A stretch of 64,000 nucleotides of DNA from Candidatus Macondimonas diazotrophica. GTDB lineage: Bacteria > Pseudomonadota > Gammaproteobacteria > UBA5335. Shown piece after piece: positions 6,295-15,893 of this stretch (position 1 is its first letter; each line of letters starts with the position of its first letter). Below the pieces are notes generated by a model, which made no database searches, was not told the origin of the DNA, and was given only the letters and a program-made list of their open reading frames with translations. Location of the stretch: assembly GCF_004684205.1 (NCBI RefSeq), contig NZ_SRIO01000002.1, positions 62,001 through 126,000 of the forward strand. The letters run 5' to 3'. Position numbers and translations under genes: made by a program.

Positions 6295-7407
6295 TCAGGG
6301 GGCAGGCGTCGTGCAAGCTTCGATGATGTCGCCATACCGTGTCCATGCGGGCTTCGGTGTCCGGTCGGGCTCCACCAATCCGAATACTTCTTCCCGCGGG
6401 ATGAGTTCATCGGGATTATCCAGATACTGGTAGAAATAAACACCCTTGGCGCCGCCGTCGATGGCTGACCGAACCATGGTTTCGATATAGGTCGCCTGCT
6501 GCTCGCGCAGCTGCGTGCCTTCATCCTCCGGCGTCTGAGGATCGTCCGGCGGCGTTTGGTAGCCGGTCTCAAAGATCATGACGTCCTTTCCACCACTGGC
6601 TGCGTGCGCCTCCTTGATTTGGTTCGTGACCAGGTTTTCGAAACCGACCGGTGGGGCACCGGCATTGAACGATGGGTAAGAGTAGAGCCCAACGGCATCG
6701 AAGCGGAAACGCTCGGCCGATTCCCGGATATGTCTTTGCCAGCCCGGGAAGCCGGGGCTGATGGTCAGCACGATTTCCGAATCGGGGTCGTGGCGTTCCA
6801 CAGCCTGGGAGAGCGTACGCAGGATTTCCCGGTTGATGATCGGCGGGAACAGACCCTCTCGCCATTGCAGCAGGACATGGATGAACGCGATGTGCAACTC
6901 GTTTTCCAGTCCCCAGACATCGACATCGTCTGCGTAGCGTTCCACGACTGCATCGGCATAGCGGGTCAAGGCTGCCACATAGTGGGGCCCAATCATTTTC
7001 CGGGTCCACAGCGGCGAGACTGGGCGAACACGGGTGTTGTAGCCGTTCCCGAGCGTCCCTGCGATGCGGATTCCGTTCGCATGGGCGGCTTCCACCAACA
7101 TATCGAAGTAGCTGAAATCGAACAGCGCACCCTGCTCGGGTTCGATGCGGCCCCAGGCGAAATCGATGCGGATCCACTGGATGCCATTTTGTGCCATGCG
7201 CTCGAGATCCTCGGGTTGCAGTTCATAACCCGGGAAGTTGACGTGATAGGCGACCAGTCCCCATTGGAAGTCCGGCGGAACAGTTCCGGCCGCGGGGCAG
7301 GACGTTGCGGCGTAGCCCGGAGAGACGATGCACCAGCAAAGCAGACCGGCCATGAGCGATGACAGGGACAGGCGTTTCAGGCACGTCGTATGGCTGTTTC
7401 GATTCAC
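6295..7407 (-). CDS. Exported clan GH-A glycoside hydrolase (paralogue 1)
   Basis: A 370-residue exported (beta/alpha)8-barrel glycosidase. The signal peptide covers roughly residues 1-33 and ends in PGYAATS. Barrel markers are WGLVAYHVNFPGYEL, WIRIDFAWGRIEPEQG, the acid/base glutamate in WGLENELHIA and the nucleophile glutamate in VMIFETGYQT, followed by GVYFYQYLDNP, the usual GH-A order. GTG at 7407 is the start, with GGGGG eight bases upstream. A second copy lies at 14694-15893. The closest general resemblance is to GH5/GH39-like enzymes, but I cannot assign a numbered family or substrate. The next gene on the strand is the unknown exported protein. Confidence 0.85.
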   Translation of the reverse strand: MNRNSHTTCLKRLSLSSLMAGLLCWCIVSPGYAATSCPAAGTVPPDFQWGLVAYHVNFPGYELQPEDLERMAQNGIQWIRIDFAWGRIEPEQGALFDFSYFDMLVEAAHANGIRIAGTLGNGYNTRVRPVSPLWTRKMIGPHYVAALTRYADAVVERYADDVDVWGLENELHIAFIHVLLQWREGLFPPIINREILRTLSQAVERHDPDSEIVLTISPGFPGWQRHIRESAERFRFDAVGLYSYPSFNAGAPPVGFENLVTNQIKEAHAASGGKDVMIFETGYQTPPDDPQTPEDEGTQLREQQATYIETMVRSAIDGGAKGVYFYQYLDNPDELIPREEVFGLVEPDRTPKPAWTRYGDIIEACTTPAP

Positions 7408-9295: not shown

Positions 9296-9931
9296 TTACT
9301 TCGGGCCTAATTCGACCTCTCTAGGGTCGAGGGTGGCCCGGCTGATCCACGCCCAGCGTGGCGCGGGTCGGCGTTTGGATGGTGGACAGGTCCACCAGAC
9401 GCGCCAGTCTCGCTCAGGCAGACATTCGCTCCATCGAGCCACCGCATGGGCCTCAAGGTCCCCGCCGGGATGACCGGGGTAAGCCATGATGCTTATCGCG
9501 CCATTGTCGCTGAGCCATTGGGTGCATGCTTGCAACGCCATCAAGGTGGTGGTGGGTCGCGTGATGATGCAATGGTTCGATCCAGGCCGGTATCCCAAGT
9601 TGAATACGGCGATTTGCAGCTGACCACGTAATTCCGGGGGCAAAAGGTCAGGCAGACAGGCGTGGTTGCCCTGATGGAGTCGAACGCGGGCTGCGAGATT
9701 GCTGGATAAGAGGCGAGCCCGGGTTTCCGCAATGGCCTCCGGCTGGATGTCGATGGCATGAACTTGGCCATGCGCACTGACCAGTCGTGCCAAATGAACC
9801 GTGTCGTGACCGTTGCCGCAGGTCGCGTCAAGCGCCACATCGCCGGGTTGAACCCATGTAGCCAACCGGCGATGAACGGCACGAATCAACGCTTCAGGGC
9901 GCGGCGAGTCGGGTGGCATAACGGTGCACAT
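9296..9931 (-). CDS. mnmM: MnmM/YtqB-like class I methyltransferase (tRNA wobble uridine)
   Basis: A 211-residue SAM methyltransferase of the rRNA_methylase/YtqB family. Motif I is VALDATCGNGHDTVHLARLV, the acidic strand-2 residue is in VHAIDIQPEAI, and the family-specific FNLGYRPGSNHCIITRP plus MAYPGHPGGDLEA follow; these match YtqB rather than true rRNA methylases. B. subtilis YtqB was renamed MnmM because it methylates nm5s2U to mnm5s2U in tRNA. The gene overlaps the end of the MnmC(o)-like gene by 38 nt (start 9931; ATG 9919 is an alternative), suggesting coupled synthesis and a shared tRNA-modification role. Confidence 0.78.
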   Translation of the reverse strand: MCTVMPPDSPRPEALIRAVHRRLATWVQPGDVALDATCGNGHDTVHLARLVSAHGQVHAIDIQPEAIAETRARLLSSNLAARVRLHQGNHACLPDLLPPELRGQLQIAVFNLGYRPGSNHCIITRPTTTLMALQACTQWLSDNGAISIMAYPGHPGGDLEAHAVARWSECLPERDWRVWWTCPPSKRRPAPRWAWISRATLDPREVELGPK

Positions 9932-10970
9932 CCACTGCAGCGGGAAGGGGGGCGCCGCCCGTCAGGTGTCGGGTCAGCTGCTGCGCGCTATCAGGCGCAC
10001 GGAGGATGCCGCGGCTGCCCAGTCCGTTGAAGATGGCGAGCCAAGACCACCTCGGGTGGCGGCCCAGGACCGGCTCACGATCGGGTGTTGCCATGCGGGT
10101 TCCGGCGTGATGGGCGAGCACATCGATCGTTAGCGGAACAGTGACATGATCCTGTAGTCGCTGGAGCAGCTGATGCCGTCCAGCGTTCGTCGGCCCGGCG
10201 GCGGAATGTCCGGGTTGATGGGTTGCGCCGAGCCAATAGCGGCGCTCTCCAAGAGGAAGCAGCGTGATCCCGGCGCTGACGGCAGTGGACCACTCCGCCG
10301 AGAGCCGAACAATCAGGCTTTCGCCGCCATTAGGTTGAAGTGGCAATCCGTCCCAGTAGGGATTACGGGTGATGCCGGCGCCTTCGCACGACAGCACGCA
10401 GCCGACCGGACGGCCGCGCCACATGATGCAGCCATTTCGCGGATCGATGCGGCACCAATCGAATGGATCCGGAAGTTGATGGCCATAGGCGTCGACTCGT
10501 CCGGCTGCCGATGCCAACATGGTTGGAAGATCCAATCGCCAGGCGTTGTGGATTTCCAAGCCGCCGAATGGTGCCCTGAATTCGGCAATGGGCGGTGTTT
10601 CGAACCATGGCCCCAGCCACGGATGGCGAGTCGATTGCGCGCGAGCGCGTTCGGAAGCGCTTTGGCACAGACGGTGCACGCTCGTCGGCGTAATCAAGGA
10701 GTGGCCCAGTTCGTGGCCTAATCGTTCATAATACTGGCGGGCGGCCGTGGATCGTGCAATGAGATCGCGCATGGGCGCCAGGCGCGGTGCGGTGAACGGG
10801 TTCATGAGTCCCCCGGCCGCGTGCGAGGCACTGGGCCGGCCGGCTGCGGTAACCATGGTGATCCGGTGTCCAGCGCGGCTGAGTTCCAATGCCATCAGCG
10901 CGCCGGATAGTCCGCTCCCGACGATTAGGGTATCGATGGGCGCCGCAGTGGGTCGGACGTTTTTCTGCAT
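9894..10970 (-). CDS. FAD-dependent oxidoreductase resembling the MnmC C-terminal domain, MnmC(o)
   Basis: A 358-residue DAO-fold flavoprotein. It has the FAD dinucleotide motif VGSGLSGALMALELSRAGH near the N-terminus, HAAGGLMNPFTAPRL at about residue 50, and the C-terminal blocks HHAGTRMATPDREPVLGR and FNGLGSRGILRAPDSAQQL. The last two align closely with the MnmC oxidoreductase domain (ALGSRGL...AP), which removes carboxymethyl from cmnm5U to give nm5U. No methyltransferase domain is fused; instead the overlapping downstream gene is MnmM-like. Glycine oxidase ThiO is a related alternative, but the GSRG block and the partner favour tRNA modification. Confidence 0.75.
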   Translation of the reverse strand: MQKNVRPTAAPIDTLIVGSGLSGALMALELSRAGHRITMVTAAGRPSASHAAGGLMNPFTAPRLAPMRDLIARSTAARQYYERLGHELGHSLITPTSVHRLCQSASERARAQSTRHPWLGPWFETPPIAEFRAPFGGLEIHNAWRLDLPTMLASAAGRVDAYGHQLPDPFDWCRIDPRNGCIMWRGRPVGCVLSCEGAGITRNPYWDGLPLQPNGGESLIVRLSAEWSTAVSAGITLLPLGERRYWLGATHQPGHSAAGPTNAGRHQLLQRLQDHVTVPLTIDVLAHHAGTRMATPDREPVLGRHPRWSWLAIFNGLGSRGILRAPDSAQQLTRHLTGGAPLPAAVDVHRYATRLAAP

Positions 10971-12990: not shown

Positions 12991-14232
12991 ATGAGCACAG
13001 CCGTTCTTTTCAATCTGCCCGGTGCGGCCGGACATATCAACCCCACCGTTGGGTTGGTGTCTGAACTGATCGCTCGCGGCGAGCGGGTCATCTATTACGC
13101 GGGAGAAGACAGTCGCCTGCAATTCGAGGCGCTGGGCGCGACGTTTCGCACCTATCATCCATTTTTCGAGTATCAGCATAGTGCAGAGGTGGCCACTTCC
13201 TTGGGCGCAGCGACCTTCATGATGCTGGATCATGCCGAACGTGCCCTGACCGGCCTGGTCGAAGTGATGGAGAAAGACAAGCCAGATTATATTCTCTACG
13301 ACTCCTGCTGCATGTTTGGAAAATATTTGGCCAAGCGGCTGGGTGTCCCGGGAATTTGTCTGGTCACCACGATCGTCAGTTCACCACTGTTGCTCATGAG
13401 CGATCCAGCGCTGCTGATGAAGGTCGCCCGGGATATCACCATGATGACGCCGCAGGTTTTGCGCACTCGGCGCCGTGTGATAAATCTGTTGAAATCCGTC
13501 GGCGTGAAATATCGCAATTTGATTCATCATGGCTTCGATATCTTTATCAATGAAGGCGATCTGAATCTCGTTTTTCTGGGGCCGGCATCCCAGCCCATGC
13601 CGAAAATGCTGAAGAAGCACTATGTCCTAGTGGGTGCATCCATCCCGGAAGGGCGCGATCCAGCCATGGACCTGCCCGCCAACTGGGGGGGCAGGACACC
13701 CTTGGTGTATGTCTCCTTGGGAACGGTCCATAACGCCAAGCAGGATTTTTACCTCAAATGTTTCAAGGCGTTGGCCGATCTGCCGTGCAAAGTCGTCATG
13801 TCGGTCGGCAAAAACACGGATATCGCTGCGCTGGGTCCAATTCCCGCCAATTTCCTGGTTCGCAATCGCGTACCGCAACTGGACATCCTCAAGCGCGCGC
13901 AGGTGTTCGTGAGCCACGGTGGCATGAACAGCATCAATGAAAGCACCTATTTCGGCGTGCCGCTGGTCATGGTGCCGCAACAGTTCGAGCAGGCCTTCAA
14001 TGCACGCCGTATTCGCAAGCAAGGTGCGGGGCTCATGATCAAGCCCGAGCATCTCACGGTGGAGAATCTTCGTGCTGCGGTGAATGACATCCTCACCCAC
14101 GAGCATTACCAGCGTAACGCCTCCCGATTGAGCCGGCAGATTCGGGCGCTGGGCGGGCATGTCGGTGCAGCGGACGAAATTCTGCGGTTCACGCATGGTG
14201 ATGCGCGGCCGAGCCTCCGCAAAACTGCCTGA
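12991..14232 (+). CDS. GT1 (MGT/UGT-like) glycosyltransferase
   Basis: A 413-residue GT-B enzyme. The N-terminal acceptor domain begins FNLPGAAGHINPTVGLVSELI, with the catalytic histidine in the GH-x-NP motif. The C-terminal donor domain carries VYVSLGTVHN and the PSPG-like box VSHGGMNSINESTYFGVPLVMVPQQFEQ that binds nucleotide sugar. This matches macrolide/sterol/zeaxanthin-type glycosyltransferases that decorate small hydrophobic acceptors. It overlaps the next membrane-protein gene. The nearby acyl-CoA and glycosidase genes hint at a glycolipid, but the acceptor is unknown. Confidence 0.88.
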   Translation: MSTAVLFNLPGAAGHINPTVGLVSELIARGERVIYYAGEDSRLQFEALGATFRTYHPFFEYQHSAEVATSLGAATFMMLDHAERALTGLVEVMEKDKPDYILYDSCCMFGKYLAKRLGVPGICLVTTIVSSPLLLMSDPALLMKVARDITMMTPQVLRTRRRVINLLKSVGVKYRNLIHHGFDIFINEGDLNLVFLGPASQPMPKMLKKHYVLVGASIPEGRDPAMDLPANWGGRTPLVYVSLGTVHNAKQDFYLKCFKALADLPCKVVMSVGKNTDIAALGPIPANFLVRNRVPQLDILKRAQVFVSHGGMNSINESTYFGVPLVMVPQQFEQAFNARRIRKQGAGLMIKPEHLTVENLRAAVNDILTHEHYQRNASRLSRQIRALGGHVGAADEILRFTHGDARPSLRKTA

Positions 14233-14776
14233 GCAGGTCAAAGGCCAACGCGCTAGCGCTGTGGGCCGTGAGACCGTGCATTTCAGCGAACGCCTGTGGG
14301 CTTTCGCGGTCACGCTGGGATTGGTCGTGACCCTGCTGGCCGCGCAGCTTTTCACGACCATGATGCAGATTGGTCTGTTTCACGTATTCCGTCTGCGGAT
14401 CGACGCCATCGTGTTCGGGGCGACAATTGCAGGACCTGAAATATCGCTTCTCCCCTGGCTGATTGGTGCCGGAGCCTACATGCTGGTGGCCTTCCGGCAT
14501 TGGAAGCGCTTGCTGTGGTGCGCAGCGCCCGTCGCACTCATGCTGTTGGGTGACGGGTTGAGTGGCTTGCGGGGTCTACGGGCTGAATCAGCTGGCGCAG
14601 CAGCCGGCATCGGCTGGGTGCTGGAGTTCGCGGGCGGGATCCAGTTTGCAGTTGGCGGTAATCTCCCGGCAACAGCTGGATTCATCATCGGATTTATCGT
14701 GATGATGAAGAAGCTTCTCTTCGATCTGCTGGTTGCGCAGCCGATCCCGCATCCCGTTCAACTTCGCGAGCGATGA
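14195..14776 (+). CDS. Putative membrane protein, unknown function
   Basis: No family recognised. From ATG 14195 (which overlaps the GT1 gene by 38 nt) the 193-residue product has a hydrophilic start, then about four membrane segments: AFAVTLGLVVTLLAAQLF, the ISLLPWLIGAGAYMLVAF region, LLWCAAPVALMLLGDGL and a C-terminal FIIGFIVMMKKLLFDLLV. No ribosome site is clear and the start could also be 14201 or later. The C-terminal 83 nt overlap the 3' end of the convergent glycosidase. Coupling with the glycosyltransferase suggests a related role, which is inference. Confidence 0.6.
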   Translation: MVMRGRASAKLPEQVKGQRASAVGRETVHFSERLWAFAVTLGLVVTLLAAQLFTTMMQIGLFHVFRLRIDAIVFGATIAGPEISLLPWLIGAGAYMLVAFRHWKRLLWCAAPVALMLLGDGLSGLRGLRAESAGAAAGIGWVLEFAGGIQFAVGGNLPATAGFIIGFIVMMKKLLFDLLVAQPIPHPVQLRER

Positions 14777-15893
14777 GGCTTCGATAGCGCTGCCATGCGG
14801 CTTTGGGCGTTCGATCGGATGTGACCAAGCCGAAATATCGTTCGCGTCCCGCCTCATTGCGGTTATCCAAATACTGGTAGAAGAAGATGCCGATCGCACC
14901 GGCTTGACGGCTGGCCTGACTCACGGCCTCGAGGTAGTCCGCCTGCAGGGTTTCGGTCCAGGGCGGCTTTTCGGTGTGCATGCCGGTTTCCAGAATGAGG
15001 ATGGGCCGTCCGCCGCTGGCTTGACGCGCGCGTGCGATTTGGCCCTTGATGCTGTCGACCAGTGCCAGATCGGGAACAAAACCCGCCGGATAGGTGTGGA
15101 TTCCGACCACATCGTAGTCGATCAGGCGGTTCATGCGTTCGATGCCGGATTCGAAAAAGGCCAACGGTGTGACGCTGATGATCAGCTCAGCCCCAGGGGC
15201 CTGGGTGTGTACGGCATGAGCGAGTGTCTGCATCACCCGATTCATGAAATCCGGCGTCCAAACGCCGACACGCCAGCCGATGAGACTGTGGACGTTGGGG
15301 ATGTTGAACTCGTTTTCCACCGCGAAGCTGTGGATCCGATCCGCGAAGTGGCGGGTGGTTGCTTCGGCATAGTCTTCCAAGGCAGCAAGATAGTCCGCTT
15401 CGTCCAGATTCCGCGTCCAAGCTGGCGCGATCGGGCGGTTGCCATTGTAACCGGCGCCAATTTTCCCGACGACCGCGAGACCGCGTTGGCGCGCGGCATC
15501 CACGAGGAGGTCGAAGAAAGCGAAATCAAAGGGCGATTGCGGATCGGGCTGAATGCGGGACCACGCCAGATCGATGCTTAGCCACCGAATGCCCGCATCG
15601 GCCATTCGGTCAATGTCGGAAAGCGTCAGTTCGTAACCGGGCAGATCGACATGATAGGCCACCAATCCCCACCGAAAAGGCGGTTCCGCAGCATCGCCAG
15701 CAGGCGTGAGTCGCTGCGAGTCGACGCCCAGGCTTGCATGCGAGAATCCCAGCAGGATCGCGACCGCCAGGTGGCGGAGTCGTTGCTGGATTTGGAGCCC
15801 CCTTTCCTGCCGTAGCGGACGGAGCGAACGGAAGAGTCGCGGCAAGCCGGAAAGCGGGATGCGACCCGGGAGCCGCATCCCGCCAAGACTCAC
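14694..15893 (-). CDS. Exported clan GH-A glycoside hydrolase (paralogue 2)
   Basis: A 399-residue paralogue of the protein at 6295-7407, collinear along the whole barrel: WGLVAYHVDLPGYEL, WLSIDLAWSRIQPD, the acid/base glutamate in FAVENEFNIP, the nucleophile in LILETGMHT and GIFFYQYLDN. The open frame begins with a GTG at 15893 that overlaps the acyl-CoA dehydrogenase stop (GTGA), so translation may be coupled. However, the signal-like segment (RLRHLAVAILLGFSHASLG) begins only near residue 38, and an AAAGGGGG site at 15798-15805 precedes an in-frame ATC at 15791-15789, exactly where paralogue 1 has its GTG. Substrate unknown. Confidence 0.8.
   Translation of the reverse strand: MSLGGMRLPGRIPLSGLPRLFRSLRPLRQERGLQIQQRLRHLAVAILLGFSHASLGVDSQRLTPAGDAAEPPFRWGLVAYHVDLPGYELTLSDIDRMADAGIRWLSIDLAWSRIQPDPQSPFDFAFFDLLVDAARQRGLAVVGKIGAGYNGNRPIAPAWTRNLDEADYLAALEDYAEATTRHFADRIHSFAVENEFNIPNVHSLIGWRVGVWTPDFMNRVMQTLAHAVHTQAPGAELIISVTPLAFFESGIERMNRLIDYDVVGIHTYPAGFVPDLALVDSIKGQIARARQASGGRPILILETGMHTEKPPWTETLQADYLEAVSQASRQAGAIGIFFYQYLDNRNEAGRERYFGLVTSDRTPKAAWQRYRSLIAREVERDAGSAAQPADRREASSSSR

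Follow-up and report, generated by a model that had tools for sequence, protein, structure and literature searches.

The locus raises the question of which enzyme acts alongside MnmM in place of MnmC(o). The paper that reported the discovery of MnmM described the MnmC(o)-like partner in MnmM-containing organisms as unknown and found no oxidoreductase operon or fusion (PMC9976899). The gene pair in the window (the whole 64,000-nt stretch of Candidatus Macondimonas diazotrophica DNA analysed here) represents such an operon, and proteins of the Mariprofundaceae represent such a fusion. We propose, with a probability of roughly 80%, that the overlapping genes encode an analogue of MnmC made of two proteins, occasionally fused, that serves the conversion of cmnm5U to nm5U and then to mnm5U.

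9296..9931, minus strand: MnmM (YtqB family) tRNA nm5(s2)U34 methyltransferase, assigned by NF053511, PDB 8h0s and active-site residues; the conserved start is probably the ATG at 9919.
9894..10970, minus strand: FAD-dependent amine oxidase with a DAO fold, 358 aa, of an MnmM-associated family, assigned by PF01266 (E=6.5e-25), its own clade and an AF2 model; context, fold and fusion suggest a cmnm5(s2)U34 to nm5(s2)U34 activity.
9894..9919, minus strand: gene overlap, 26 nt from the conserved start or 38 nt from the ATG at 9931; it probably couples the translation of oxidase and MnmM.

Both open reading frames lie where the preliminary description placed them, but the 38 nt overlap that it gave requires translation to begin at the first ATG (9931). 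An overlap of 26 nt is more probable: the sister genome L030 lacks the equivalent of 9931 and retains only the ATG that corresponds to 9919, and the L019 junction likewise overlaps by 26 nt. The genes flanking the pair (a lytic transglycosylase, TerC, a HAD hydrolase and an ABM domain) form an ordinary mixture with no relation to tRNA. Further out, two paralogous glycoside-hydrolase-like proteins flank the pair at 6295-7407(-) and 14694-15893(-) (PF02449, E about 1e-8), and a UDP-glycosyltransferase-like protein at 12991-14232(+) (PF00201, E=1.8e-22) adjoins the HAD hydrolase and TerC.

The ORF at 9296-9931(-) was identified as MnmM by the NCBIfam equivalog model NF053511 (169.7 bits, cut-off 135) and matched the solved B. 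subtilis YtqB (8h0s) with E=6.9e-31. Window residues D43, N111, Y114, Y151 and H154 correspond to B. subtilis D34, N101, Y104, Y141 and H144, mutation of any of which abolished activity (PMC9976899). With the model, the match to solved YtqB and the active-site residues in agreement, the earlier placement of the methyltransferase in the YtqB/MnmM family, a type known from Gram-positive bacteria and plants, is borne out, and the methyl step, in which the window MnmM would methylate nm5(s2)U34, is well supported.

The oxidase proved to be something other than the lone FAD half of MnmC that the preliminary description had taken it for. It scored below the cut-offs of both the ThiO model TIGR02352 (65.5 bits, cut-off 250.8) and the MnmC1/MnmC_Cterm model TIGR03197 (63.1 bits, cut-off 174.2; 49.3 bits in the genome search). 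Profile comparison placed the oxidase family at about equal distance from MnmC(o) (score 241) and ThiO (score 254). In trees the family formed a clade of its own (SH-aLRT 100, and 95 in a second tree), apart from the MnmC FAD domains and ThiO (SH-aLRT 96 and 98, respectively, in the first tree); the first tree holds few outgroups, with E. coli SolA and DadA as long branches, and the root is not fixed. The family thus falls outside the ThiO clade, which answers the earlier concern that the FAD protein might group with glycine oxidases. By these sequence comparisons, the oxidase differs from the FAD half of MnmC and is a family of its own within the glycine-oxidase/MnmC(o) superfamily. Because its clade is separate from MnmC(o), both halves of MnmC, and not the methyl half alone, appear to be replaced.

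The AF2 model of the oxidase (pLDDT 90.2) was compared with known structures using Foldseek, which ranked iminodiacetate oxidase and glycine oxidases above E. coli MnmC (rank 16); the top match was the iminodiacetate oxidase IdaA (6pxs), with a TM score of 0.75 and 20% identity. Iminodiacetate oxidase, glycine oxidase and MnmC share one chemistry: they oxidise a carboxymethylamine at the bond between C-alpha and N. The MnmC1 reaction has been described in these terms (PMC3648344). The C-terminal motif of the oxidase family, NG[LF]GS[RK]G, resembles GLGSRG of MnmC and is unlike GHYRNG of ThiO; the window oxidase carries GLGSRG near its C-terminus, and GxGS[RK]G is present in 19 of 25 family members, the others having A or G for S. 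The arginine of the GxRP motif (R292) is invariant across the family, and in the alignment it matches the glycine oxidase arginine that binds the substrate carboxylate. Where glycine oxidase has its second arginine, the family members have S and then R or K, which is also the arrangement in GLGSRG of MnmC.

Across a class sample of 369 genomes, MnmM was found in 29 above the cut-off, in one just below it and in one as a fragment. At 25 of 30 MnmM loci in this sample the same oxidase family lies directly upstream, on the same strand and in the same order, with junctions that range from touching to an overlap of about 50 nt and with oxidase identities mostly of 25-35%. This adjacency is far beyond chance, and the operon link between the two genes that the preliminary description had put forward is upheld by the recurring gene order. 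A profile built from the 25 paired oxidases and run on the 369 genomes recovered the family in 28 of them at 302 bits or more; the next match scored 126 bits and the known ThiO of the Macondimonas genome fell among the lower-scoring matches, which sets the family clearly apart. MnmM is present in 26 of the 28 genomes with the oxidase versus 5 of the 341 others, and the Fisher p=1.1e-32 for this contrast overstates independence because the sampled genomes are kin, although the holders nonetheless span many families. Distances between oxidases correlate with those between MnmM proteins (r=0.63, none of 5000 permutations as high), with a contribution from shared ancestry.

Clear matches to PF05430, the MnmC(m) domain, occur at more than 40 bits in about 85 of the 369 genomes and in none of the 31 with MnmM (p=2e-4), a class-wide pattern that agrees with the reported mutual exclusion of MnmM and MnmC (PMC9976899). 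The pattern shows mutual exclusion with MnmC; the replacement of the MnmC methyl domain put forward in the preliminary description is a historical event that may lie behind it. In roughly 250 of the 369 genomes, MnmM and a clear MnmC methyl domain are both missing.

The exceptions to the pairing are few. One genome (G356, L122) combines the oxidase with a stand-alone, unlinked MnmC(m) (PF05430) in place of MnmM, and another (G034, L103), assembled as one contig, has the oxidase while MnmM and MnmC(m) are both undetected. MnmM occurs without the oxidase in G322, G155, G266 and G362, all of them complete enough; the latter three (L035, L036, L037) belong to one family, and no TIGR01212 protein scored above the cut-off in them. 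G079 (L106) has the oxidase and MnmM on separate contigs; an operon is thus not the only form that the pairing takes.

For a view beyond the class, named genomes were scanned with a 10-sequence subset of the oxidase alignment, which returned at least 572 relatives. Among the best 80 of these, in a tally that also took in three extra loci without MnmM, MnmM lies downstream on the same strand at 59 and in another arrangement at none. Holders include Methylobacter, Methylomonas, Methylotuvimicrobium buryatense 5G, Nitrosomonas communis (Betaproteobacteria) and Mariprofundus (zetaproteobacteria). In a few bins of Opitutia and Bacteroidia (L138, L173, L200) the oxidase has no MnmM next to it, reflecting either transfer or binning error. 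In the phylum sample, the oxidase was present in 37 genomes outside the class, all of one family, several of these loci being identical to named Mariprofundaceae records.

In six Mariprofundaceae genomes oxidase and MnmM share one open frame of 554-583 codons, with the oxidase N-terminal. The fusions map to the tree as two changes, one uniting five genomes of the genus Mariprofundus and one in another genus, which gives at least two origins. Sequencing error is unlikely, since the fused frame is common to five genomes; the fusion in the sixth stands alone.

The genome from which the window derives (2.8 Mb, 94 contigs, 96% complete) encodes MnmG (885.8 bits) and MnmE (302.4 bits), both above their cut-offs. 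The preliminary description had named a fused mnmC elsewhere in the genome as grounds for refutation; none was found in this 96%-complete genome, and neither was a PF05430 MnmC methyl domain; at that completeness the absence of MnmC is probable rather than certain, and the class-wide pattern supports it. For the radical SAM family TIGR01212, presumably that of YtqA/MnmL, the best score anywhere in the genome, the neighbourhood of MnmM included, was 24 bits against a cut-off of 180, so MnmL was rejected as the partner of MnmM here. The genome has a separate ThiO (276 bits, cut-off 250.8), located on contig C4, and the window oxidase is thus not the ThiO of this organism.

In the pathway that we propose, MnmE and MnmG would place cmnm5 (or nm5) on the wobble U34. 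The FAD oxidase would then oxidise cmnm5(s2)U34 at its C-alpha to N bond, in the manner of glycine oxidase and MnmC(o), to give nm5(s2)U34 and glyoxylate, and MnmM would convert nm5(s2)U34 to mnm5(s2)U34. The gene overlap and, in some lineages, the fusion would hold the two enzymes together. What the oxidase acts on, and which tRNA product finally results in this organism, are our inferences: because MnmC(o) is no closer to the oxidase than ThiO is, and in view of the Foldseek order, it is the context that points to a tRNA substrate. MnmEG can form nm5U with ammonium (PMC3936742), so the oxidase is not strictly needed to provide the substrate of MnmM.

This last route belongs to a reading that we hold to be improbable, namely that the substrate of the oxidase is a small free amine such as glycine, sarcosine or iminodiacetate, that MnmM by itself uses nm5U made by MnmEG and ammonium, and that the two genes are linked by co-expression only. 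Its nearest folds, the iminodiacetate and glycine oxidases, agree with such a role, as do the four genomes with MnmM and no oxidase; yet the near-exclusive co-occurrence of oxidase and MnmM, and a fusion with at least two origins, would be left unexplained. Nor would it account for the genome that joins the oxidase to a stand-alone MnmC(m), or for the separate ThiO present in 22 of 30 MnmM genomes. A still smaller chance, which we put as very low, is that the MnmM label is wrong and the pair modifies a target other than tRNA U34. Pfam labels the MnmM family a putative rRNA methylase, and K11 and K110, lysines through which B. subtilis MnmM contacts RNA, are replaced by the histidines H20 and H120 in the window protein, as happens in many relatives. 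However, lysine occupies the K11 position in none of 28 relatives and the K110 position in 14 of 28, so that these changes are natural variation within the family and no grounds to exclude membership. The NF053511 score well above the equivalog cut-off, the catalytic N, Y and H conserved in 27-28 of 28 relatives, and the mutual exclusion with MnmC(m) all speak for U34, and methyltransferase activity has been demonstrated for members of the family (PMC9976899).

A different ancestry with the same function is conceivable, and we regard it as doubtful: the oxidase could be a highly diverged MnmC(o) orthologue split from MnmC, the methyltransferase alone having been exchanged. The common GxGS[RK]G motif, the shared superfamily and the same expected reaction would fit such a descent. 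Against it stand the separate clade outside the supported MnmC clade, the score below the MnmC1 cut-off and the equal profile distance to ThiO; with the root not fixed, a sister relation to MnmC(o) may still hold. Returning to the pair as an MnmC analogue, we lean slightly towards the broader view that its oxidase represents a cmnm5U oxidase of a third kind, recruited independently of MnmC(o) and the radical-SAM MnmL and distinct from both. It would be partnered by MnmM in gamma-, beta- and zetaproteobacteria and would have fused with it more than once into an inverted, convergent MnmC.

If true, a single enzymatic step would have a third solution, a bifunctional tRNA enzyme would clearly have been assembled by convergence, and several hundred generic annotations as "FAD oxidoreductase" and "rRNA methylase" could be corrected. 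Candidate residues and a cultivated species, Methylotuvimicrobium buryatense 5G, are available for study of the oxidase. Our literature search found no published description of the oxidase-MnmM pair; Jaroch et al. 2024, whose abstract on routes to mnm5s2U reportedly mentions fusions and alternative arrangements, lay outside its scope. Part of the finding may already be known, and priority is uncertain.

Among known systems, ThiO shares with the oxidase the DAO fold, a profile match and the invariant GxRP arginine (R292), expected to bind the carboxylate, but it belongs to a separate clade and carries GHYRNG where the oxidase has NGxGS[RK]G. IdaA (6pxs), judging by its name, removes the carboxymethyl group of a secondary amine, which is the chemistry proposed for the oxidase; unlike the oxidase, it acts on a free small-molecule substrate and has no link to MnmM. 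The Gram-positive YtqA-YtqB (MnmL-MnmM) is reportedly presented by Jaroch et al. 2024 as a two-gene arrangement. Its methyltransferase is of the same family as that in the window, whereas its partner YtqA, as cited in PMC12245174 and PMC10965804, is a radical SAM enzyme in place of the flavin oxidase found here. With E. coli MnmC the pair shares the two final steps expected of it, the combination of a SAM methyltransferase with an FAD oxidase (both oxidases belonging to one superfamily), and a GxGSRG-type motif. MnmC is, however, one fused MnmC(m)-MnmC(o) protein and the window holds two overlapping genes; the methyltransferase is PF05430 in the former and MnmM in the latter, and the oxidase clades are likewise separate. 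The preliminary description had called the two methyltransferases unrelated and non-homologous: MnmC(m) and MnmM are non-orthologous and of different families of Rossmann-fold methyltransferases, but they may be homologous. Where the pair is fused, in Mariprofundaceae, the oxidase precedes the methyltransferase, the reverse of the order in MnmC.
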